A stretch of DNA of 64,000 nt from Salvelinus alpinus (lineage: Eukaryota > Chordata > Actinopteri > Salmoniformes > Salmonidae): positions 86,849,864 to 86,913,863 of the forward strand of contig NC_092087.1 of the NCBI RefSeq assembly GCF_045679555.1. Reading direction: 5' to 3'. Position 1 is the first letter of the stretch. Every line of letters starts with the position of its first letter. This document shows positions 1-55,175 of this stretch, piece after piece. A program made the position numbers and the translations under genes. The notes below the pieces were generated by a model that was not told where the DNA came from, did no database searches, and saw only the letters and a program-made list of their open reading frames with translations.

Positions 1-3000
1 TGATGTAATCTTAGTATGTTGTAGTCACCATCTGTTACAACTGTTCTGTCTGTTGTATATGATGTAATCTTAGTATGTTGTAGTCACCATCTGCTACAAC
101 TGTTCTGTCTGTTGTATATGATGTAATCTTAGTATGTTGTAGTCACCATCTGCTACAACTGTTCTGTCTGTTGTATATGATGTAATCTTAGTATGTTGTA
201 GTCACCATCTGCTACAACTGTTCTGTCTGTTGTATATGATGTAATCTTAGTATGTTGTAGTCACCATCTGCTACAACTGTTCTGTCTGTTGTATATGATG
301 TAATCTTAGTATGTTGTAGTCACCATCTGCTACAACTGTTCTGTCTGTTGTATATGATGTAATCTTAGTATGTTGTAGTCACCATCTGCTACAACTGTTC
401 TGTCTGTTGTATATGATGTAATCTTAGTATGTTGTAGTCACCATCTGCTACAACTGTTCTGTCTGTTGTATTTGATGTAATCTTAGTATGTTGTAGTCAC
501 CATCTGCTACAACTGTTCTGTCTGTTGTGTATGATGTAATCTTAGTATGTTGTAGGCACCATCTGTTACAACTGTTCTGTCTGTTGTATATGATGTAATC
601 TTAGTATGTTGTAGTCACCATCTGTTACAACTGTTCTGTCTGTTGTATATGATGTAATCTTAGTATGTTGTAGTCACCATCTGCTACAACTGTTCTGTCT
701 GTTGTATATGATGTAATCTTAGTATGTTGTAGTCACCATCTGCTACAACTGTTCTGTCTGTTGTATATGATGTAATCTTAGTATGTTGTAGTCACCATCT
801 GCTACAACTGTTCTGTCTGTTGTATATGATGTAATCTTAGTATGTTGTAGTCACCATCTGCTACAACTGTTCTGTCTGTTGTATATGATGTAATCTTAGT
901 ATGTTGTAGTCACCATCTGCTACAACTGTTCTGTCTGTTGTATATGATGTAATCTTAGTATGTTGTAGTCACCATCTGCTACAACTGTTCTGTCTGTTGT
1001 ATATGATGTAATCTTAGTATGTTGTAGTCACCATCTGCTACAACTGTTCTGTCTGTTGTATATGATGTAATCTTAGTATGTTGTAGTCACCATCTGCTAC
1101 AACTGTTCTGTCTGTTGTATATGATGTAATCTTAGTATGTTGTAGTCACCATCTGCTACAACTGTTCTGTCTGTTGTATATGATGTAATCTTAGTATGTT
1201 GTAGTCACCATCTGCTACAACTGTTCTGTCTGTTGTATATGATGTAATCTTAGTATGTTGTAGTCACCATCTGCTACAACTGTTCTGTCTGTTGTATTTG
1301 ATGTAATCTTAGTATGTTGTAGTCACCATCTGCTACAACTGTTCTGTCTGTTGTATATGATGTAATCTTAGTATGTTGTAGTCACCATCTGGCACAACTG
1401 TTCTGTCTGTTGTATTTGATGTAATCTTAGTATGTTGTAGTCACCATCTGCTACAACTGTTCTGTCTGTTGTATATGATGTAATCTTAGTATGTTGTAGT
1501 CACCATCTGGCACAACTGTTCTGTCTGTTGTATATGATGTAATCTTAGTATGTTGTAGTCACCATCTGTTACAACTGTTCTGTCTGTTGTGTATGTTGTA
1601 GTCACCATCTGCTACAACTGTTCTGTCTGTTGTATTTGATGTAATCTTAGTATGTTGTAGTCACCATCTGCTACAACTGGTCTGTCTGTTGTATATGATG
1701 TAATCTTAGTACATTTACATTTAAGTCATTTAGCAGACGCTCTTATCCAGAGCGACTTATGATGTAATCTTAGTATGTTGTAGTCACCATCTGTTACAAC
1801 TGTTCTGTCTGTTGTATATGATGTAATCTTAGTATGTTGTAGTCACCATCTGCTACAACTGTTCTGTCTGTTGTATATGATGTAATCTTAGTATGTTGTA
1901 GGCACCATCTGTTACAACTGTTCTGTCTGTTGTATATGATGTAATCTTAGTATGTTGTAGTCACCATCTGCTACAACTGTTCTGTCTGTTGTATTTGATG
2001 TAATCTTAGTATGTTGTAGTCACCATCTGCTACAACTGTTCTGTCTGTTGTATATGATGTAATCTTAGTATGTTGTAGTCACCATCTGTTACAACTGTTC
2101 TGTCTGTTGTATATGATGTAATCTTAGTATGTTGTAGTCACCATCTGCTACAACTGTTCTGTCTGTTGTATATGATGTAATCTTAGTATGTTGTAGTCAC
2201 CATCTGTTACAACTGTTCTGTCTGTTGTATATGATGTAATCTTAGTATGTTGTAGTCACCATCTGTTACAACTGTTCTGTCTGTTGTATATGATGTAATC
2301 TTAGTATGTTGTAGTCACCATCTGTTACAACTGTTCTGTCTGTTGTATATGATATAATCTTAGTATGTTGTAGTCACCATCTGCTACAACTGTTCTGTCT
2401 GTTGTATATGATGTAATCTTAGTATGTTGTAGTCACCATCTGCTACAACTGTTCTGTCTGTTGTATTTGATGTAATCTTAGTATGTTGTAGTCACCATCT
2501 GTTACAACTGTTCTGTCTGTTGTATATGATGTAATCTTAGTATGTTGTAGTCACCATCTGCTACAACTGTTCTGTCTGTTGTATTTGATGTAATCTTAGT
2601 ATGTTGTAGTCACCATCTGCTACAACTGTTCTGTCTGTTGTATATGATGTAATCTTAGTATGTTGTAGTCACCATCTGCTACAACTGTTCTGTCTGTTGT
2701 ATATGATGTAATCTTAGTATGTTGTAGTCACCATCTGCTACAACTGTTCTGTCTGTTGTATATGATGTAATCTTAGTATGTTGTAGTCACCATCTGTTAC
2801 AATTGTTCTGTCTGTTGTATATGATGTAATCTTAGTATGTTGTAGTCACCATCTGTTACAACTGTTCTGTCTTGTGTATGTTGTAGTCACCATCTGCTAC
2901 AACTGTTCTGTCTGTTGTATATGATGTAATCTTAGTATGTTGTAGGCACCATCTGTTACAACTGTTCTGTCTGTTGTATATGATGTAATCTTAGTATGTT

Positions 3001-3624
3001 GTAGTCACCATCTGTTACAACTGTTCTGTCTTGTGTATGTTGTAGTCACCATCTGCTACAACTGTTCTGTCTGTTGTATATGATGTAATCTTAGTATGTT
3101 GTAGGCACCATCTGTTACAACTGTTCTGTCTGTTGTATATGATGTAATCTTAGTATGTTGTAGTCACCATCTGTTACAACTGTTCTGTCTGTTGTATATG
3201 ATGTAATCTTAGTATGTTGTAGTCACCATCTGTTACAACTGTTCTGTCTGTTGTATATGATGTAATCTTAGTATGTTGTAGTCACCATCTGTTACAACTG
3301 TTCTGTCTGTTGTATATGATGTAATCTTAGTATGTTGTAGTCACCATCTGTTACAACTGTTCTGTCTGTTGTATATGATGTAATCTTAGTATGTTGTAGT
3401 CACCATCTGCTACAACTGTTCTGTCTGTTGTATATGATGTAATCTTAGTATGTTGTAGTCACCATCTGCTACAACTGTTCTGTCTGTTGTATATGATGTA
3501 ATCTTAGTATGTTGTAGTCACCATCTGTTACAACTGTTCTGTCTGTTGTATATGATGTAATCTTAGTATGTTGTAGTCACCATCTGTTACAACTGTTCTG
3601 TCTGTTGTATATGATGTAATCTTA
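1..3624. repeat. 59-bp satellite array, about 60 copies
   Basis: The unit starts TGATGTAATCTTAGTATG and repeats every 59 bp from the first base to the assembly gap, so both true ends lie outside what is seen. Units differ at a few fixed sites: CTGCTACAAC versus CTGTTACAAC, GTATATG versus GTATTTG, and TAGTCACC versus TAGGCACC. Shortened units lacking about 20 bp occur near 1590, 2872 and 3031. The block around 2872-3000 is repeated about 158 bp later, which indicates some higher-order structure. No coding potential is seen. Confidence 0.97.
1695..1775 (-). mobile_element. 47-bp L2-tail insertion with 17-bp target-site duplication
   Basis: Bases 1712-1758 interrupt a satellite unit. They are the reverse complement of the 3' tail of the L2 LINE that ends at 47030 (core CAGACGCTCTTATCCAGAGC). 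The 17 bp ATGATGTAATCTTAGTA stands on both sides, at 1695-1711 and 1759-1775, so the satellite phase restarts after the insert, as a target-site duplication predicts. It is either an extremely 5'-truncated LINE copy or the tail of an L2-tailed SINE. Confidence 0.85.
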
Positions 3625-3724
3625 NNNNNNNNNNNNNNNNNNNNNNNNNNNNNNNNNNNNNNNNNNNNNNNNNNNNNNNNNNNNNNNNNNNNNNNNNNNN
3701 NNNNNNNNNNNNNNNNNNNNNNNN
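3625..3724. other. Assembly gap (100 N)
   Basis: A run of exactly 100 N separates the 59-bp satellite from a 38-bp minisatellite. The round size suggests an unsized scaffold gap, so the true distance and any missing 5' exons of the downstream gene are unknown. Confidence 0.99.
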
Positions 3725-4216
3725 CTCTTTATCATTATCATGAAGACATACCATCCCAGCTGGTCTTTATCATTATCAGAAAGACATACCATCCCAGCTG
3801 GTCTTTATCATTATCATGAAGACATACCATCCCAGCTGGTCTTTATCATTATCATGAAGACATACCATCCCAGCTGGTCTTTATCATTATCATGAAGACA
3901 TACCCATCCCAGCTGGTCTTTATCATTATCATGAAGACATACCATCCCAGCTGGTCTTTATCATTATCATGAAGACATACCATCCCAGCTGGTCTTTATC
4001 ATTATCATGAAGACATACCCATCCCAGCTGGTCTTTATCATTATCATGAAGACATCCCCATCCCAGCTGGTCTTTATCATTATCATGAAGACATACCATC
4101 CCAGCTGGTCTTGATCATTATCATGAAGACATACCATCCCAGCTGGTCTTGATCATTATCATAAAGACATACCATCCCAGCTGCTCTTGATCATTATCAT
4201 AAAGACATACCATCCC
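3725..4216. repeat. 38-bp minisatellite, about 13 copies
   Basis: The unit (core CTTTATCATTATCATGAAGA followed by CATACCATCCCAGCTGGT) is repeated with small changes: CATACCCATCC, TTGATCATT and ATCATAAAGA variants. It ends at about 4216 where ordinary sequence begins. From 4217 to 4572 nothing recognisable precedes the first Ig exon. Confidence 0.95.
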
Positions 4217-4572
4217 ACTCCCATTAGAAGTTCACAACGAGAAGGGCAATATAGAAATAATGACGCTCAAATAAAAAAATCATGAATTAAAATAATGAGA
4301 ATTTATATCAATCTAATTGAGGTGTAGATTACATCTCACATTCCAGTGTTCCAACTTGTAAACAAAGCTGCATGGGATTTCCCTTAATGCGACTCTGTGC
4401 AGCCAATGGCAATGTGCTCTTGAGGTATAGTGCCGGGATTTACGTGTGGATTTGACAGCTCTAATGCAGTTCCAACTACGACACCGCCAAAACAACCGCA
4501 ATGCAGGTGTCGGCTATCGCAGATGTCATAGAATCTAGCCCTTAATGCATTTTTTTTTCAATTATTTACTAG

Positions 4573-22365: not shown

Positions 22366-22473
22366 AGTGTGAAAATCTCCCCCAGTGACACGTTCACATC
22401 TCTTCAGAGAGACGATCAGCCCTCCGTTTATCAGACCATTCAGGGGAGAAAAACACCACAGAACCTGGACTGA
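22366..22473 (+). CDS. Cytoplasmic-tail exon with an ITIM-like motif
   Basis: Acceptor TCTCTCTCAG opens a frame that runs SVKISPSDTF ... QPSVYQTIQG and ends at TGA 22471-22473. SVYQTI fits the ITIM consensus (Ser-x-Tyr-x-x-Ile), and several Ser-Pro/Thr sites are present. It is unlike the tails of genes 1 and 2, so it belongs to another receptor type, or to a former neighbour. Its upstream exons are missing or unrecognised, so it is probably a leftover. Confidence 0.5.
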   Translation, partial: SVKISPSDTFTSLQRDDQPSVYQTIQGRKTPQNLD

Positions 22474-23012
22474 AAGAAGCACCACAGAACCTGGACTGAT
22501 AGAACCACCACAGAACCTGGACTGATAGAACCACCACAGAACCTGGACTGATAGAACCACCACAGAACCTGGACTGATAGAACCACCACAGAACCTGGAC
22601 TGATAGAACCACCACAGAACCTGGACTGAAGAGAACCACCACCGAACCTGGAAGGAAGAGAACCACCACCGAACCTGGAGAGAAGAGAACCACCACAGAA
22701 CCTAGACTGAAGAGAACCACCACAGAACCTGGACTAAAGAGAACCATCACAGAACATGGACTGAAGAGAACCATCACAAAACCTGGACTGATAGAACCAT
22801 CACAGAACCTGGACTGATAGAACCACCACAGAACCTGGAGGGAAGAGAACCACCCCCGAACCTGGAGAGAAGAGAACCACCACCAAACCTAGACTGAAGA
22901 GAACCACCACATAACCTGGACTAAAGAGAACCATCACAGAACATGGACTGAAGAGAACCATCACAGAACATGAACTGAAGAGAACCACCACAGAACATGG
23001 ACTGAAGAGCTA
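22449..23012. repeat. 26-bp minisatellite overlapping the stop codon of the tail exon
   Basis: Units of CACAGAACCTGGACTGATAG plus AACCAC repeat about 21 times, with GGAAGAGAACC and GAGAGAAGAG variants. The exon's stop codon (CTGGACTGA) is the first unit. Confidence 0.9.
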
Positions 23013-24260: not shown

Positions 24261-25038
24261 GAGCTTTAGGAGTAGTATTAACATGAGACACAGTGATGGT
24301 GGGTTGTGTTTAGGAGTAGTATTAACATGAGACACAGTGATGGTGGGTTGTGTTTAGGAGTAGTATTAACATGAGCCAGTGACGGTGGGTTGTGGTTAGG
24401 AGTAGTATTAACATGAGACACAGTGATGGTGGGATGTGTTTAGGAGTAGTATTAACATGAGACACAGTGATGGTGGGTTGTGGTTAGGAGTAGTATTAAC
24501 ATGAGACACAGTGATGGTGGGATGTGTTTAGGAGTAGTATTAACATGAGACACAGTGATGGTGGGTTGTGTTTAGGAGTAGTATTAACATGAGACACAGT
24601 GATGGTGGGTTGAGTTTAGGAGTAGTATTAACATGAGACACAGTGATGGTGGGTTGTGTTTAGGAGTAGTATTAACATGAGACACAGTGATGGAGGGTTG
24701 TGTTTAGGAGTAGTATTAACATGAGACACAGTGATGGTGGGTTGTGTTTAGGAGTAGTATTAACATGAGACACAGTGATGGTGGGTTGTGTTTAGGAGTA
24801 GTATTAACATGAGACACAGTGATGGAGGGTTGTGTTTAGGAGTAGTATTAACATGATACACAGTGATGGAGGGTTGTGTTTAGGAGTAGTATTAACATGA
24901 GACACAGTGATGTTGGGTTGTGTTTAGGAGTAGTATTAACATGATACACAGTGATGGAGGGTTGTGTTTAGGAGTAGTATTAACATGATACACAGTGATG
25001 GAGGGTTGTGTTTAGGAGTAGTATTAACATGAGAAACA
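24258..25038. repeat. 44-bp minisatellite, about 17 copies
   Basis: Units of GTTGTGTTTAGGAGTAGTAT followed by TAACATGAGACACAGTGATGGTGG. Variants are GGAGGG for GGTGGG and GATACAC for GAGACAC, the latter clustered at the right end. Confidence 0.95.
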
Positions 25039-43110: not shown

Positions 43111-43323
43111 TTCCCATCATACTGTATCATAGAACTTCCGGGTTGGAGCGAGTAGTCGCATTTCGCTTCGCTCCACAGGTAGTATTACATTTAATTTCAT
43201 TTCATTACAGTACAACGGTTTGATTTGTTTGATCTTAGCACTTTTTTCTTAGCTAGCTACATAGCAGTCTTTGTATCAAAGATAATTGTGTAGTTTAGAT
43301 TATTATCGAATTATCAAATCTTC

Positions 43324-43790
43324 TAACGTTGTCAACACTGCTAGCTAGCCAACTAGCCAACTTCTACCGAAACAGTACAACGGAACGATTTGATTAGTGT
43401 AGTGTTAGCTAGCTACATAGTTGTCTTTGCTGTCTTTGTATCTAAGATAATTGTGTAGTTTAGAGTAATTATCTAGCCAGTTATCGAGGTTACCTAGCCA
43501 GCTCCACTTTCAAACAAAGTCAGCTAGCCAGCTATTTTCGCCGTCCTAACGTTGTCAACACTGCTAGCTAGCCAACTAGCCAACTTCTACCGAAACAGTA
43601 CAACGGAACGATTTGATTAGTGTAGTGTTAGCTAGCTACATAGTTGTCTTTGCTGTCCTTGTATCTAAGATAATTGTGTAGTTTAGAGAATTATCTAGCC
43701 AGTTATCGAGGTTACCTAGCCAGTTATCGAGGCTACCTAGCCAGCAACACTTTCAAACAAAGTCAACAACGCAGCCACTGCTAGCTAGCC
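43324..43790 (+). promoter_or_regulatory. Tandem 5' UTR units of the L2 LINE
   Basis: CTAACGTTGTCAACACTGC and CGAAACAGTACAACGGAACG recur 223 bp apart, and a shorter partial unit precedes them. Tandem 5' UTR monomers act as internal promoters in some LINEs; that role is inferred here. Confidence 0.6.
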
Positions 43791-43946
43791 TACTTCACCA
43801 GTCAGCAGTACTGCATCACTTTAATCATTTTAGTCAATAAGATTTTTGCTACGTAAGCTTAACTTTCTGAACATTCGAGACGTGTAGTCCACTTGTCATT
43901 CCAATCTCCTTTGCATTAGCGTAGCCTCTTCTGTAGCCTGTCAACT

Positions 43947-46880
43947 ATGTGTCTGTCTATCCCTGTTCTCTCCTCTCTGCACAGACCATACAAACGCTTC
44001 ACACCGCGTGGCCGCTGCCACCCTAACCTGGTGGTCCCAGCGCGCATGACCCACGTGGAGTTCCAGGTCTCCGGCAGCCTCTGGAACTGCCGATCTGCGG
44101 CCAACAAGGCAGAGTTCATCTCAGCCTATGCTTCCCTCCAGTCCCTCGACTTCTTGGCACTGACGGAAACATGGATTACCACAGATAACACTGCTACTCC
44201 TACTGCTCTCTCCTCGTCTGCCCACGTGTTCTCGCACACCCCGAGAGCTTCTGGTCAGCGGGGTGGTGGCACTGGGATCCTCATCTCTCCCAAGTGGACA
44301 TTCTCTCTTTCTCCCCTGACCCATCTGTCTATCGCCTCCTTTGAATTCCATGCTGTAACAGTTACCAGCCCTTTCAAGCTTAACATCCTTATCATTTATC
44401 GCCCGCCAGGTTCCCTTGGAGAGTTCATCAATGAGCTTGACGCCTTGATAAGTTCCTTCCCTGAGGATGGCTCACCTCTCACAGATCTGGGTGACTTTAA
44501 CCTCACCACGTCTACCTTTCACTCATTCCTCTCTGCCTCCTTCTTTCCACTCCTCTCCCCTTTTGACCTCACCCTCTCACCTTCCCCCCCTACTCACAAG
44601 GCAGGCAATACGCTTGACCTCATCTTTACTAGATGCTGTTCTTCCACTAATCTCATTGCAACTCCCCTCCAAGTCTCCGACCACTACCTTGTATCCTTTT
44701 CCCTCTCGCTCTCATCCAACACTTCCCACTCTGCCCCTACTCGGATGATATCGCGCCGTCCAAACCTTCGCTCTCTCTCCCCCGCTACTCTCTCCTCTTC
44801 CACCCTATCATCTCTTCCCTCTGCTCAAACCTTCTCCAACCTATCTCCTGATTCTGCCTCCTCAACCCTCCTCTCCTCCCTTTCTGCATCCTTTGACTCT
44901 CTATGTCCCCTATCCTCCAGGCCGGCTCGGTCCTCCCCTCCTGCTCCGTGGCTCGACGACTCATTGCGAGCTCACAGAACAGGGCTCCGGGCAGCCGAGC
45001 GGAAATGGAGGAGAACTCGCCTCCCTGCGGACCTGGCATCCTTTCACTCCCTCCTCTCTACATTTTCCTCTTCTGTCTCTGCTGCTAAAGCCACTTTCTA
45101 CCACTCTAAATTCCAAGCATCTGCCTCTAACCCTAGGAAGCTCTTTGCCACCTTCTCCTCCCTCCTGAATCCCCCCCCCCCCCCCTCCTCCCTCTCTGCG
45201 GATGACTTCGTCAACCATTTTGAAAAGAAGGTTGACGACATCCGATCCTCGTTTGCTAAGTCAAACGACACCACTGGTTCTGCTCACACTGCCCTAACCT
45301 GTGCTTTGACCTCTTTCTCCCCTCTCTCCCCAGATGAAATCTCGCGTCTTGTGACGGCCGGCCGCCCAACACCCTGTCCGCTTGACCCTATCCCCTCCTC
45401 TCTTCTCCAGACCATTTCCGGAGAACTTCTCCCTTACCTCACCTCGCTCATCAACTCATCCTTGACCACTGGCTACGTCCCTTCCGTCTTCAAGAGAGCG
45501 AGAGTTGCACCCCTTCTGAAAAAACCTACACTCGATCCCTCCGATGTCAACAACTACAGACCAGTATCCCTTCTTTCTTTTCTCTCCAAAACTCTTGAAC
45601 GTGCCGTCCTTGGCCAGCTCTCCTGCTATCTCTCTCAGAATGACCTTCTTGATCCAAATCAGTCAGGTTTCAAGACTAGTCATTCAACTGAGACTGCTCT
45701 TCTCTGTGTCACGGAGGCGCTCCGCACTGCTAAAGCTAACTCTCTCTCCTCTGCTCTCATCCTTCTAGACCTATCGGCTGCCTTTGATACTGTGAACCAT
45801 CAGATCCTCCTCTCCACCCTCTCCGAGTTGGGCATCTCCGGCGCTGCCCACGCTTGGATTGCGTCCTACCTGACAGGTCGCTCCTACCAGGTGGCGTGGC
45901 GAGAATCTGTCTCCTCACCACGTGCTCTCACCACTGGTGTCCCCCAGGGCTCTGTTCTAGGCCCTCTCCTATTCTCGCTATACACCAAGTCACTTGGCTC
46001 TGTCATAACCTCACATGGTCTCTCCTATCATTGTTATGCAGACGACACACAATTAATCTTCTCCTTTCCCCCTTCTGATAACCAGGTGGCGAATCGCATC
46101 TCTGCATGTCTGGCAGACATATCAGTGTGGATGACGGATCACCACCTCAAGCTGAACCTCGGCAAGACAGAGCTGCTCTTCCTCCCGGGGAAGGACTGCC
46201 CGTTCCATGATCTCGCCATCACGGTTGACAACTCCATTGTGTCCTCCTCCCAGAGCGCTAAGAACCTTGGCGTGATCCTGGACAACACCCTGTCGTTCTC
46301 AACTAACATCAAGGCGGTGGCCCGTTCCTGTAGGTTCATGCTCTACAACATCCGCAGAGTACGACCCTGCCTCACACAGGAAGCGGCGCAGGTCCTAATC
46401 CAGGCACTTGTCATGTTCCGTCTGGATTACTGCAACTCGCTGTTGGCTGGGCTCCCTGCCTGTGCCATTAAACCCCTACAACTCATCCAGAATGCCGCAG
46501 CCCGTCTGGTGTTCAACCTTCCCAAGTTCTCTCACGTCACCCCGCTCCTCTGCTTTCTCCACTGGCTTCCAGGTGAAGCTCGCATCCGCTACAAGACCAT
46601 GGTGCTTGCCTACGGAGCTGTGAGGGGAACGGCACCTCCGTACCTTCAGGCTCTGATCAGGCCCTACACCCAAACAAGGGCACTGCGTTCATCCACCTCT
46701 GGCCTGCTCGCCTCCCTACCTCTGAGGAAGTACAGTTCCCGCTCAGCCCAGTCAAAACTGTTCGCTGCTCTGGCACCCCAATGGTGGAACAAACTCCCTC
46801 ACGATGCCAGGACAGCGGAGTCAATCACCACCTTCCGGAGACACCTGAAACCCCACCTCTTTCAGGAATACCTAGGATAG
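43947..46880 (+). CDS. L2 LINE polyprotein: endonuclease and reverse transcriptase
   Basis: 977 residues with no interruption. The N-terminal third is an APE-type endonuclease: LTETWIT, GGGTGILIS, YRPPG, LGDFNLT and VSDHYLVSF supply the expected catalytic Glu, Asn, Asp and His sites. A Ser-rich linker follows, then reverse transcriptase: NNYRPVSLL, DLSAAFDTVNH, GVPQGSVLGPLLF and CYADDTQL (YADD catalytic motif). The C-terminus is the usual L2 thumb region. One ORF, with no ORF1, fits the L2 group. ATG at 43947 is the first Met; a start at MTHVEF is also possible. It nicks target DNA and primes reverse transcription there. Confidence 0.92.
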   Translation: MCLSIPVLSSLHRPYKRFTPRGRCHPNLVVPARMTHVEFQVSGSLWNCRSAANKAEFISAYASLQSLDFLALTETWITTDNTATPTALSSSAHVFSHTPRASGQRGGGTGILISPKWTFSLSPLTHLSIASFEFHAVTVTSPFKLNILIIYRPPGSLGEFINELDALISSFPEDGSPLTDLGDFNLTTSTFHSFLSASFFPLLSPFDLTLSPSPPTHKAGNTLDLIFTRCCSSTNLIATPLQVSDHYLVSFSLSLSSNTSHSAPTRMISRRPNLRSLSPATLSSSTLSSLPSAQTFSNLSPDSASSTLLSSLSASFDSLCPLSSRPARSSPPAPWLDDSLRAHRTGLRAAERKWRRTRLPADLASFHSLLSTFSSSVSAAKATFYHSKFQASASNPRKLFATFSSLLNPPPPPSSLSADDFVNHFEKKVDDIRSSFAKSNDTTGSAHTALTCALTSFSPLSPDEISRLVTAGRPTPCPLDPIPSSLLQTISGELLPYLTSLINSSLTTGYVPSVFKRARVAPLLKKPTLDPSDVNNYRPVSLLSFLSKTLERAVLGQLSCYLSQNDLLDPNQSGFKTSHSTETALLCVTEALRTAKANSLSSALILLDLSAAFDTVNHQILLSTLSELGISGAAHAWIASYLTGRSYQVAWRESVSSPRALTTGVPQGSVLGPLLFSLYTKSLGSVITSHGLSYHCYADDTQLIFSFPPSDNQVANRISACLADISVWMTDHHLKLNLGKTELLFLPGKDCPFHDLAITVDNSIVSSSQSAKNLGVILDNTLSFSTNIKAVARSCRFMLYNIRRVRPCLTQEAAQVLIQALVMFRLDYCNSLLAGLPACAIKPLQLIQNAAARLVFNLPKFSHVTPLLCFLHWLPGEARIRYKTMVLAYGAVRGTAPPYLQALIRPYTQTRALRSSTSGLLASLPLRKYSSRSAQSKLFAALAPQWWNKLPHDARTAESITTFRRHLKPHLFQEYLG

Positions 46881-47030
46881 GATAAAGTAATCCTTCTAAC
46901 CCCCCCCCCCCCTTAAAAGATTTAGATGCACTATTGCAAAGTGGTTGTTCCACTGGATATAAGGTGAATGCACCAATTTGTAAGTCGCTCTGGATAAGAG
47001 CGTCTGCTAAATGACTTAAATGTAAATGTA

Positions 47031-47206: not shown

Positions 47207-47672
47207 AGGTGCCAGGCAGGTGTTAACCTGCTGAACTGAAAAGAGTAGAATAGATAGAGAACCACTACCAGACAGGTATTAAGCTGCTGAACTGAAAAGA
47301 GTAGGATAGATAGAGAACCAGTACCAGACAGGTATTAACCTGCTGAACTGAAAAGAGTAGAATAGATAGAGAACCAGTACCAGACAGGTCCCAGACAGGT
47401 ATTAACCTGCTGAACTAGAGTAGAATAGATAGAGAACCAGTACCAGACAGGTATTAACCTGCTGAACTGAAAAGAGTAGGATAGACAGAGAACCACTACC
47501 AGACAGGTATTAACCTGCTGAACTGAAAAGAGTAGGATAGATAGAGAACCACTACCAGACAGGTATTAACCTGCTGAACTGAAAAGAGTAGAATAGATAG
47601 AGAACCACTACCAGACAGGTATTAACCTGCTGAACTGAAAAGAGTAGGATAGATAGAGAACCACTACCAGAC
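47207..47672. repeat. 56-bp minisatellite, about eight copies
   Basis: Units of ACCAGACAGGTATTAACCTG then CTGAACTGAAAAGAGTAGAA and TAGATAGAGAACCAGT. Confidence 0.93.
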
Positions 47673-48619
47673 ACATTAGCAGAAGAGACTGTCTATAGGG
47701 TAGCCTGTTGGCCAGATAGCCAGTGGGGAGGAAGGAGAAGACAAGTCACAGCACAGGGGTAACCCAACCAATAATAACTCATACAAGATTAATGGCAAAG
47801 CAATTCAAAGGCAACTTCCTAGAAACAATGGACAAGAAAGAACGCAGTCATAGAACTTAGAGAATTTGCAATATTCTGTATTACCTCCAAGTGGAGGAGG
47901 GAGGGGGTATGAATGGGTGTGTGTAGGTGTGTTCATAGACAAAAAAGGACTTAAAAATGTCCAAATGTCTGTTGTCCCACACAAAATCAATAAAGTTCAA
48001 AACACCCTCCCTTTACCTAAAATGTCAAACAGTCCTAAAGTGCATTATTAGTTCACTGAAGGCTCGGAACATGAAGAGAGAGCAGCACTAAGAGAGCACA
48101 TATTTCACTGAAGAAGGAGATAGAAAGAGAGAGATGGGCTTAGCTGTTGTGTCCAGGCTTGAACGTCTATTTGTCCGTCCGACACAATCCTTGGTTGTTC
48201 GTTTGACAAAAGCTTGCAACAATGTTGCTAGTAATCGATGAGATCAGAGGCCAGAACGCTTCCAACTCGTCAGGAGTATAGCGCGATAACAACAGCGATC
48301 ACACTTAGAAATGTTATAAACTAAGCAAGCTGAAACCAAACAAGACGTAAGCGGAGTTGAACACACCCGTCAAAACTGCCCCGCCAATCGAGAGCTCCGA
48401 CACTGAGCCGGAAGAGCCGTCTTGATTTCCTCCTTCCTGACTGCTGCTGCGCTCTTAAAGTGCACGGTGAAGACTCCATGCAGGATTTCACTACACGTGT
48501 TTGTGTGCTTATTAAATGTGACTTTGTCAAGTACTAGACAGTGTTGTTTTTCACCATTCTATCTGATTCATTTCCAGTTTGTAATGTTGTTATTAGCCCA
48601 ACATTATTGAGAACATTAT
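47673..48619. other. No gene seen; unclassified repeat-like sequence
   Basis: 47840-48560 has the look of an old LTR or regulatory segment (AGGCTTGAACGTCTATTTG, GCTCTTAAAGTGCACGG), but no TG...CA ends with matching flanks were found. Frames of about 60 codons are not supported as genes. Confidence 0.3.
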
Positions 48620-49240: not shown

Positions 49241-49431
49241 GAAATATAGTTTTGGGATATTTGTTTTTAGTCATAAGTCATATTCTTGAGGGTAATGTAT
49301 CAATTTACTTATTATGTTTTGATCTGTGTTTTGGTTGTTACATCAGGGTCAGTATTCATAAAGTGTCTCAGTGTAGGAGTGTTTATCTACATAGTGATGA
49401 GATGATTAACTAGGGGAAAATAGACAAGCAA

Positions 49432-50246
49432 TGGTGCAGCAACTCTCCCCTCCCTTTTCCCCCTCTCTTCCTCCCCTCTTCTCTCTCCAGCAGTATGGTG
49501 AGGCAACTCTCCCCTCCCTTTCTCCCTCTCTTCCTCCCCTCTTCTCTCTCCAGCGGTATGGTGAGGCATCTCTCCCCTCCCTTTTCCCCCTCTCTTCCTC
49601 CCCTCTTCTCTCTCCAGCAGTATGGTTAGGCAACTCTCCCCTCCCTTTTCCCCCTCTCTTCCTCCCCTCTTCTCTCTCCAGCAGTATGGTGAGGCAACTC
49701 TCCCCTCCCTTTTCCCCCTCTCTTCCTCCCCTCTTCTCTCTCCAGCAGTATGGTGAGGCAACTCTCCCCTCCCTTTCCCACCTCTCTTCCTCCCCTCTTC
49801 TCTCTCCAGCAGTATGGTGAGGCAACTCTCCCCTCCCTTTTCCCCCTCTCTTCCTCCCCTCTTCTCTCTCCAGCAGTATGGTGAGGCATCTCTCCCCTCC
49901 CTTTTCCCCCTCTCTTCCTCCCCTCTTCTCTCTCCAGCAGTATGGTGAGGCAACTCTCCCCTCCCTTTCTCCCCCTCTCTTCCTCCCCTCTTCTCTCTCC
50001 AGCAGTATGGTGAGGCATCTCTCCCCTCCCTTTTCCCCCTCTCTTCCTCCCCTCTTCTCTCTCCAGCAGTATGGTGAGGCAACTCTCCCCTCCCTTTCTC
50101 CCCCTCTCTTCCTCCCCTCTTCTTTCTCCAGCAGTATGGGGAGGCAACTCTCCCCTTCCTTTTCCCCCTCTCTTCCTCCCCTCTTCTCTCTCCAGCAGTA
50201 TGGTGAGGCAACTCTCCACTCCCTTTCCCCCCTCTTCTCTCTCCAG
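49432..50246 (+). repeat. Minisatellite made of a splice acceptor and the first bases of the next exon
   Basis: Twelve units of about 63 bp, each with a pyrimidine tract (CTCCCTTTTCCCCCTCTC, CTTCTCTCTCCAG) then CAGTATGGTGAGGCA. The thirteenth acceptor is the one that belongs to the exon at 50247. Long frames on both strands here are repeat artefacts. Confidence 0.92.
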
Positions 50247-50351
50247 CAGTATGGTGAGGCAGAGAGGGCCATGCAGCAGTTGTTGAAGCTGGATCAGGAC
50301 TGTGAGGAGGCCTCCACTGAGCTCTTCTACTGCGAGGTCCTGCAGCTCATG
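50247..50351 (+). CDS. Single exon of an unidentified helical (TPR-like?) protein
   Basis: Acceptor CTCTCCAG (a CAGCAG tandem acceptor) and donor GTGAGG enclose exactly 35 codons: QYGEAERAMQQL ... CEEASTELFYC ... VLQLM. The Y-G-E-A-E-x-A spacing resembles a tetratricopeptide helix pair. The rest of the gene is not in the window unless 55033-55073 belongs to it. Product not recognised. Confidence 0.5.
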
Positions 50352-51476
<1,125 letters not shown>

Positions 51477-51965
51477 CACTGAGTATACCAATCATTAAGA
51501 ACACATTCCTAATATTGAGTTGCACCCCCCACTTTTGCCCTCAGAACAGCCTAAATTCATCAGGGCATGGACTCTACAAGGTGTCAAAAGCGTTCCACGG
51601 GGAAGGCTTGCCCATGTTGACTCCAATGCTTCGTACAGTTGTGTCAAGTTGGCTGGATGTCCTTTGGGTGGTTGACCATTGTTGATGCACCAGGGAAACT
51701 GTTGAGCAAGAAAAACCCAGCAGCGCTGAAGTTCTTGACACAAACCGGTGCGTCTGGCACAAACTACCATACCCCGTTCAAACGCACTTAAATCTTTTGG
51801 CTCATTCATTCACCCTCTGAATGACACACATACACAATCCATTTCTCAAGGCTTAAAAATCCTTCTTTAACCTGTCTCCAATCAATAAGGGATCATAGCC
51901 TTCACCTGGATTCACCTGGTCAGTCTGCCATGGAAAGGTGTTCCTAATGTTTTGTACATTCACTG
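51477..51965 (-). mobile_element. Tc1-derived MITE-like element
   Basis: Starts at a TA with CACTGAGTATACCAATCATT and ends TTCCTAATGTTTTGTACATT, worn inverted repeats of one family. Minus-strand frames keep Tc1-like pieces (LCQELQRCW, GHPANLTQL). It is not able to encode a transposase. Confidence 0.7.
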
Positions 51966-54373
51966 TCTGTTCCATGGACTAATACATGTATGTTCAGTGG
52001 ACTAATACATGTCTGTTCAGTGGACTAATACATGTCTGTTCAGTGGACTAGTACATGTATGTTCAGTGGACTAATACATGTCTGTTCAGTGGACCAGTAC
52101 ATGTATGTTCAGTGGACTAGTACATGTATGTTCAGTGGACTAGTACATGTATGTTCAGTGGACTAATACATGTATGTTCAGTGGACTAATACATGTCGTT
52201 CAGAGGACTAATACATGTCTGTTCAGTGGACTAATACATGTCGTTCAGAGGACTAATACATGTCGTTCAGAGGACTAATACATGTCTGTTCAGTGGACTA
52301 ATACATGTCTGTTCAGTGGACTAATACATGTCTGTTCAGTGGACTAGTACATGTCTGTTCAGTGGACTAGTACATGTATGTTCAGTGGACTAATACATGT
52401 ATGTTCAGTGGACTAGTACATGTATGTTCAGTGGACTAGTACATGTATGTTCAGTGGACTAATACCTGTATGTTCAGTGGACTAATACATGTCTGTTCAG
52501 TGGACTAATACATGTATGTTCAGTGGACTAATACATGTCTGTTCAGAGGACTAATACATGTCTGTTCAGTGGACTAATACATGTATGTTCAGTGGACTAA
52601 TACAAGTCTGTTCAGTGGACTAATACATGTCTGTTCAGTGGACTAATACATGTATGTTCAGTGGACTAACACATGTCTGTTCAGTGGACTAATACCTGTA
52701 TGTTCAGTGGACTAATACATGTCTGTTCAGAGGACTAATACATGTCTGTTCAGTGGACTAATACATGTATGTTCAGTGGACTAATACATGTCTGTTCAGT
52801 GGACTAATACATGTATGTTCAGTGGACTAACACATGTATGTTCAGTGGACTAATACATGTCTGTTCAGTGGACTAATACATGTATGTTCAGTGGACTAAT
52901 ACATGTATGTTCAGTGGACTAATACATGTCTGTTCAGTGGACTAATACATGTATGTTCAGTGGACTAATACATGTATGTTCAGTGGACTAATACATGTCT
53001 GTTCAGTGGACTAATACATGTATGTTCAGTGGACTAATACATGTATGTTCAGTGGACTAATACATGTCTGTTCAGTGGACTAATACATGTATGTTCAGTG
53101 GACTAATACATGTCTGTTCAGTGGACTAGTACATGTCTGTTCAGTGGACTAATACATGTATGTTCAGTGGACTAATACATGTCTGTTCAGTGGACTAGTA
53201 CATGTCTGTTCAGTGGACTAATACATGTCTGTTCAGTGGACTAATACATGTATGTTCAGTGGACTAGTACATGTATGTTCAGTGGACTAGTACATGTCTG
53301 TTCAGAGGACTAACACATGTCTGTTCAGTGGACTAATACGTGTCTGTTCAGTGGACTAACACATGTCTGTTCAGTGGACTAATACATGTCTGTTCAGTGG
53401 ACTAATACATGTCTGTTCAGTGGACTAATACATGTCTGTTCAGTGGACTAATACATGTCTGTTCAGAGGACTAATACATGTCTGTTCAGTGGACTAATAC
53501 ATGTATGTTCAGTGGACTAATACATGTATGTTCAGTGGACTAGTACATGTATGTTCAGTGGACTAGTACATGTCTGTTCAGTGGACTAATACATGTCTGT
53601 TCAGTGGACTAATACATGTCTGTTCAGAGGACTAATACATGTCTGTTCAGTGGACTAATACATGTCTGTTCAGAGGACTAATACATGTCTGTTCAGAGGA
53701 CTAATACATGTCTGTTCAGTGGACTAATACATGTCTGTTCAGTGGACTAATACATGTCTGTTCAGAGGACTAATACATGTATGTTCAGTGGACTAGTACA
53801 TGTATGTTCAGTGGACTAATACATGTATGTTCAGTGGACTAATACATGTATGTTCAGTGGACTAATACATGTCTGTTCAGTGGACTAATACATGTATGTT
53901 CAGTGGACTAATACCTGTCTGTTCAGTGGACTAATACATGTATGTTCAGTGGACTAATACATGTATGTTCAGTGGACTAATACATGTCTGTTCAGTGGAC
54001 TAATACATGTCTGTTCAGTGGACTAATACATGTCTGTTCAGTGGACTAATACCTGTCTGTTCAGTGGACTAATACATGTATGTTCAGTGGACTAATACAT
54101 GTATGTTCAGTGGACTAATACATGTATGTTCAGTGGACTAATACATGTATGTTCAGTGGACTAATACATGTATGTTCAGTGGACTAATACATGTCTGTTC
54201 AGTGGACTAATACATGTATGTTCAGTGGACTAATACATGTATGTTCAGTGGACTAATACATGTATGTTCAGTGGACTAATACATGTCTGTTCAGTGGACT
54301 AATACATGTCTGTTCAGTGGACTAATACATGTCTGTTCAGTGGACTAATACATGTATGTTCAGTGGACTAATA
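51966..54373. repeat. 23-bp minisatellite, about 104 copies
   Basis: Unit GTTCAGTGGACTAATACATG plus TAT or TCT. Two main variants (GTATG, GTCTG) mix along the array, with rarer AGAGGACT, CTAGTACATG and CTAACACATG forms. It begins directly at the end of the Tc1-derived element. Confidence 0.96.
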
Positions 54374-55003
<630 letters not shown>

Positions 55004-55032: not shown

Positions 55033-55175
55033 GTGGAGAGTTCAGAACCTGTGAAGAGGAGTCTCACTAACAGGTGAGAATCTAACCTTACTCTCTCTCG
55101 ATCTCTCCCCCCCCCCTCCCTCCCTCCTCCCCTCTTCTCTCCAGCGGTATGTTGAGGCAGACAGGGGCATGTAAC
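55033..55175 (+). other. Exon-like piece and a worn copy of the tandem acceptor
   Basis: CTCATTTCAG-GTGGAGAG ... ACTAACAG-GTGAGA outlines a 41-bp exon-like segment. After another pyrimidine tract, CTCTCCAG-CGGTATGTTGAGG is a diverged copy of the acceptor and exon start found at 50247, then sequence diverges at GGGGCATG. It may be a leftover of exon duplication. Confidence 0.35.

Follow-up and report, generated by a model that had tools for sequence, protein, structure and literature searches.

In a 64-kb stretch of DNA from Salvelinus alpinus (C2:86849864-86913863, called the window throughout and meant at its full length of 64,000 nucleotides), the 3′ splice site of a 35-codon exon occurs thirteen times in a tandem array of units of about 64 bp. 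The exon, E3, comes from a gene coding for TPR and RRM domains, in which E1 and E2 precede it and E4 follows it. From the comparison of its copies across the genome, we consider that the array is very probably a neutral minisatellite lodged in a broken fragment of this gene, within the segmental duplications of C2, and not selected for splicing. Because the gene piece looks broken, an unstable repeat in a gene fossil is more likely than a splicing dial. The features on which the argument is built are as follows, other loci of the genome being designated by an L number:

49431..50246, + strand: minisatellite of about 64-bp units, i.e., 12 extra E3 3′ splice sites upstream of the authentic one (Tandem Repeats Finder (TRF), spacing, unit list)
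50247..50351, + strand: exon E3 of the TPR/RRM gene, 35 codons, phase 0, open, then the donor ATG|GTGAGG; without its E2 (sequence, translation, homology)
50710..50798, + strand: broken E4, acceptor AG changed to AT (TGTAT|GATCTGGG), 2-nt deletion (comparison with L011, L009, L010)
55142..55174, + strand: second piece of E3, truncated, with an acceptor; its 9 codons end at a stop, beyond which lies repeat-like sequence (sequence comparison)

The array and the exon it derives from

TRF placed the minisatellite at 49431-50235 (score 1480; period 64, 12.6 copies, 95% matches); with the 15 leading nucleotides of E3 counted in, the units span 49442-50261. Each unit consists of a pyrimidine tract, CCAG and CAGTATGGTGAGGCA, with few changes among units. 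Thirteen sites, from 49488 to 50244, fit CAGCAGTATGGTGAGGC with at most one mismatch; elsewhere in the window, on both strands and with up to three mismatches allowed, there is a single further site, at 55142, and the structure of that E3 fragment (acceptor, 9 codons, repeat-like sequence) recurs in L022 and L023. The first exonic bases behind acceptors 1 to 13 are 49491, 49554, 49618, 49682, 49746, 49810, 49874, 49938, 50003, 50067, 50132, 50196, and 50247, with successive gaps of 63, 64 (six times), 65, 64, 65, 64, and 51 bp. An earlier note on this DNA had described thirteen tract-plus-CAG blocks about 63 bp apart, the last of which alone would enter a 35-codon exon with a donor; TRF and the motif positions agree with it on both counts, as the gaps are of 63-65 bp with a last one of 51, and E3 (105 nt, QYGEAERAMQQLLKLDQDCEEASTELFYCEVLQLM; 50247-50351, ending at ATG|GTGAGG) is entered by the thirteenth acceptor only.

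The unit bridges the exon boundary: it is made of the last 49 nt of the intron and 15 nt of E3, and is homologous to the single-acceptor E3 of L011. The proposal that the repeat was built from the acceptor of the adjoining exon is thus borne out, both by these 15 nt and by the existence of single-acceptor relatives. Inside the unit, 7 nt separate AG from GT, and the decoy donor ATG|GTGAGG matches the true one across nine positions; of the 12 upstream units of the window, 10 have it intact.

In L011, the intron end reads CTTCCATCTCTCCCC...CTCTCTCCAG|CGGTATGGTGAGGCAGAG, while in the array units GGCA is joined to (A/T)CTCTCC; this junction suggests that a shared CA may have been the joining point of the first duplication. 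The minisatellite would have arisen by tandem duplication of the intron 3′ end together with the first 15 nt of E3, the first event joining GGCA to CATCTCTCC, perhaps via that shared CA; unequal exchange or slippage would then have enlarged the array and made its units more alike, splicing not being under selection. The left flank of the array is not the L011 intron; it is a block with relatives elsewhere in the window.

The parent gene was reconstructed from exon order and Pfam matches on C3, and from L011. A locus at 89.61 Mb of C3 displays the TPR exons E1 and E2, then E3, E4, and an RRM exon; Pfam gave RRM_1 above its cut-off at this locus and weak TPR matches below theirs, and we read a CCCH-like stretch in the residues beyond the RRM exon. 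By resemblance, the gene may be TTC31. Tc1-type transposase matches appeared in the same profile scan; like the genome size, they are in line with a salmonid origin. On C2, L011 is the better-kept copy, with E1, E2, E3, and E4 present, their AG and GT in place, and two RRM pieces about 15 kb beyond E4. Decay is visible in the other single-acceptor C2 copies (L012-L018), where a TGA stands at the identical E3 position in 7 of 7, some of them having frameshifts too. A search of solved structures with the exon returned no identity for it, the best whole-sequence match (E 0.022) not being a TPR protein by name.

Paralogous copies and the state of the gene fragment

A DNA search of the 2.37-Gb genome with the array and the exon gave 39 rows, namely 14 near-full exon copies and 4 pieces that are truncated or at an edge, the other 21 rows lying elsewhere. 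Eleven near-full copies are found on C2, between 85.9 and 89.0 Mb, and three on C3; the window is one among many scrambled duplicates lying at about 85.4-89 Mb of C2. The acceptor is duplicated in 3 of the 14 near-full copies, with 13 units in the window, 14 in L009, and 2 in L010, the first of the latter two being shortened. Seven further copies (L011-L017) each have a single unit-core match within 9.9 kb when up to 4 mismatches are allowed. In the remaining four (L018 and the three C3 copies), the exon start is too diverged for a unit-core match, and no repeat of their own exon start was seen in the 160 bp upstream. The window and L009 are 93% identical over the 2.2 kb upstream of the array, and the window and L010 are 92% identical over 0.9 kb, including the first units of L010. 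Array length is, thus, unstable between paralogues, and copy number differs among near-identical ones in a segmental duplication, as it does in variable internal tandem repeats.

In the window, E4 starts 0.36 kb downstream of E3, and its 2-nt deletion shifts the frame; the E4 acceptor of L011 reads TGTAG|GATCTGGG, and its frame is open. L009 (CAT) and L010 (TAT) have in common with the window both the loss of the E4 AG and the 2-nt deletion. As the copies with 2, 13, and 14 units share these lesions, parsimony indicates that the damage to the fragment most likely came before the divergence in copy number, gene conversion being possible. At E≤0.01, tblastn detected neither E1 nor E2 nor RRM in the window (just short weak fragments at E≤10), and no E1 or E2 in the 9.9 kb around L009 and L010. 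Among the genome-search matches listed, the closest E2 that precedes the window's E3 on the same strand is at C2:85793634, 1.1 Mb off, and none lies beside L009 or L010. With E1, E2, and RRM not found and E4 broken, a working exon in the window was rejected as the likeliest reading.

Several points weigh against a neutral fossil. E3 is open with an intact donor GT in the window, L009, and L010, which is expected of a working exon too; the E3 copies compared are set apart by 2-6 differences. CCAG is unchanged in all 26 full units compared below. Same-strand pieces of the second half of the RRM lie downstream of L009 (C2:88563810) and L010 (C2:88962619), and therefore more of the gene is kept there than in the window. 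Finally, the counts from the genome search are lower bounds.

Unit turnover, reading frame, and rival explanations

The order of unit types is aataaaatataaa in the window and aatctactaatcta in L009, the latter with a three-unit rhythm. At the edges, the last unit of the window is deviant, at 51 bp, and that of L009 is of the common type. We counted changes in 26 full units out of 28 pieces from these two arrays, a small sample, leaving aside the last 51-bp unit of the window, an edge piece of L009, and a length-variable stretch of 5-7 nt. Changes numbered 4 in 390 letters for the 15 exon-derived nucleotides, 5 in 832 for the 32-nt intronic tail, and 12 in 286 for the 11-nt head; across the 26 units, there is no excess conservation of the exon-derived letters over the intronic ones. 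For so small a sample, the pattern looks like homogenisation, with no sign of selection on the exon piece.

The earlier note also held that a frame, QYGEA, is kept in each unit. This does not hold: 9 of the 13 window acceptors meet a stop before the end of the exon, and only acceptors 8, 10, 12, and 13 are open that far. Among the closed ones, acceptors 1, 2, and 5 give a length divisible by three, yet a stop is met; the remaining six are out of frame and meet a stop as well. Six of the nine read 24 codons before their stop. In L009, the final acceptor alone is open (1 of 14), the other 13 leading to a stop or to the wrong frame. The frame is lost because the unit is 64 bp long: reading passes into the following unit shifted by one base and runs into TGA (TGG TGA GGC). 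As each unit looks like a small exon with a decoy donor, the locus, if transcribed, could produce messy RNA, mostly with stops, nine of the thirteen window acceptors leading to one; acceptors 8, 10, or 12 may give an in-frame product.

The array could be a working splice regulator in a transcribed copy, the number of decoy acceptors setting the use of the last AG or adding repeat-coded residues. Each unit does resemble a complete acceptor with a long pyrimidine tract, most hold a decoy donor that agrees with the true donor across nine positions, and four acceptors are in frame. However, no E2 was found upstream, E4 is broken, 9 of 13 acceptors in the window and 13 of 14 in L009 are closed or out of frame, and the similar “mirage” minisatellites of lancelets are reported (PMC3087553, PMC3902484) to be without effect on splicing. 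We regard such a regulator as very unlikely; the two proposals of the earlier note along this line, copy-number tuning of splicing and general in-frame insertion of repeat units, find no support here. It is very improbable, too, that another transcription unit, for example, an upstream immunoglobulin (Ig)-domain gene on the same strand, splices in E3 and its array as a non-coding or chimeric exon. Ig-domain exons do lie on the + strand at about 33.4-37.8 kb and E3 retains its acceptor and donor, but nothing points to a junction, the last Ig match found is some 12 kb away on the upstream side, and a retroelement (43134-47030) stands in between.

Tandem arrays are prone to mis-assembly, and the window does contain a run of 100 N (3625-3724); nevertheless, an assembly artefact behind the copy number is most improbable, as a similar array, its units in a different order, stands in the paralogue L009. 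For the same reason, an array of this sort is likely real, even if its exact number of units may be off. Chance resemblance of a generic pyrimidine-rich satellite to splice sites has a next to negligible probability. In its favour, 21 of the 39 genome-search rows fall outside the exon family, and all five regions examined among them, which cover 7 of these rows, consist of CT-rich tandem arrays; against it, the unit holds the first 15 nt of the adjoining exon, related copies show the single-copy source, and none of the five regions has a unit-core match at up to 4 mismatches. We also considered, and rejected, a genome-wide class of splice-acceptor minisatellites, given this absence of unit-core matches in the five regions read (7 of the 21 non-family rows). 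Their TRF periods are 11 bp; 5, 7, and 19 bp; 30 bp; 18, 98, and 116 bp; and 15 to 112 bp, the last with a loose 65-bp row.

Known systems and other contents of the window

Minisatellites overlapping splice sites are a known kind. In lancelets, mirage minisatellites have been described in Adh3 and in the globins BflGb6 and BflGb9; in BflGb6, whose two haplotypes have 6 and 3 units, the intron 3′ end and the exon start are repeated, and splicing is reported as undisturbed (PMC3087553). PGBD5, Adh, and TnC of lancelets are compared in PMC3902484. The likeness lies in tandem, minisatellite-sized units of unstable length over an exon-intron boundary; the fish array differs in being attached to an exon without E2, in a broken fragment, with 13-14 units of 64 bp. 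It is probably a vertebrate case of a kind that the papers considered describe mainly from lancelets. A vertebrate mirage that is transcribed at the window, L009, or L010, and in which RNA outcome would depend on copy number through competition among acceptors (all of them with a pyrimidine tract of their own, the majority also with a decoy donor), has only a slim chance of existing.

In human segmental duplications, minisatellite copy number varies between recent paralogues, in some cases at exon-intron boundaries (De Grassi and Ciccarelli 2009, PMC2812944); these variable internal tandem repeats have a mean unit of 30 bp, about 4 copies, and transcript support, whereas here the units exceed those values in length and in number. 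Intron gain by tandem duplication of AG/GT proto-splice sites (PMC2891723) is akin to our case in that AG and GT lie close together in the unit, so that two units could bound an intron; however, the duplicated piece here contains an existing acceptor, with its AG and GT only 7 nt apart. No salmonid case of an exon-boundary minisatellite appeared by title among the literature matches listed, which is not proof that none is in print. One has to keep in mind that, within segmental duplications, acceptors that look intact and an open exon of 35 codons speak only weakly for a working gene. Paralogues with one, two, thirteen, and fourteen copies in a single genome are useful for studying the start and turnover of splice-site minisatellites.

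The rest of the window contains the following features:

21.5-21.8, 33.4-33.7, 34.3-34.6, 36.7-36.9, and 37.2-37.8 kb, + strand: Ig-domain matches (V-set, Ig_2, Ig_3, CD22-like profile; Pfam, those at 21.5 and 34.3 kb below cut-offs)
43134-47030: retroelement of the non-long-terminal-repeat type (RVT_1 and endonuclease matches)
50810-51143: 43-bp minisatellite directly after the broken E4 (TRF)
1-3624: minisatellite, 59 bp x 62 (TRF)
3726-4217: minisatellite, 38 bp x 13 (TRF)
22447-23009: minisatellite, 27 bp x 21 (TRF)
24265-25038: minisatellite, 44 bp x 18 (TRF)
47212-47673: minisatellite, 56 bp x 8 (TRF)
51964-54375: minisatellite, 23 bp x 105 (TRF)

In the parts scanned (the + strand after 14040, in one of its three frames beyond about 58980), Pfam matched the retroelement, the Ig domains, and a protease propeptide inside the 23-bp repeat array, with no TPR. 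The DNA of the Ig blocks recurs in L012 and L015, which suggests a duplicated cluster of Ig-receptor genes with pieces of the TPR/RRM gene as passengers. L009 aligns on both sides of the retroelement without it; the element is, thus, present in the window and absent in L009. In L011, sequence similar to the 43-bp minisatellite begins about 15 nt past the E4 donor; with that repeat after E4 and the 64-bp array before E3, minisatellites stand on both sides of E3-E4. More generally, minisatellites are abundant in the window, whose 100-N gap is at 3625-3724.
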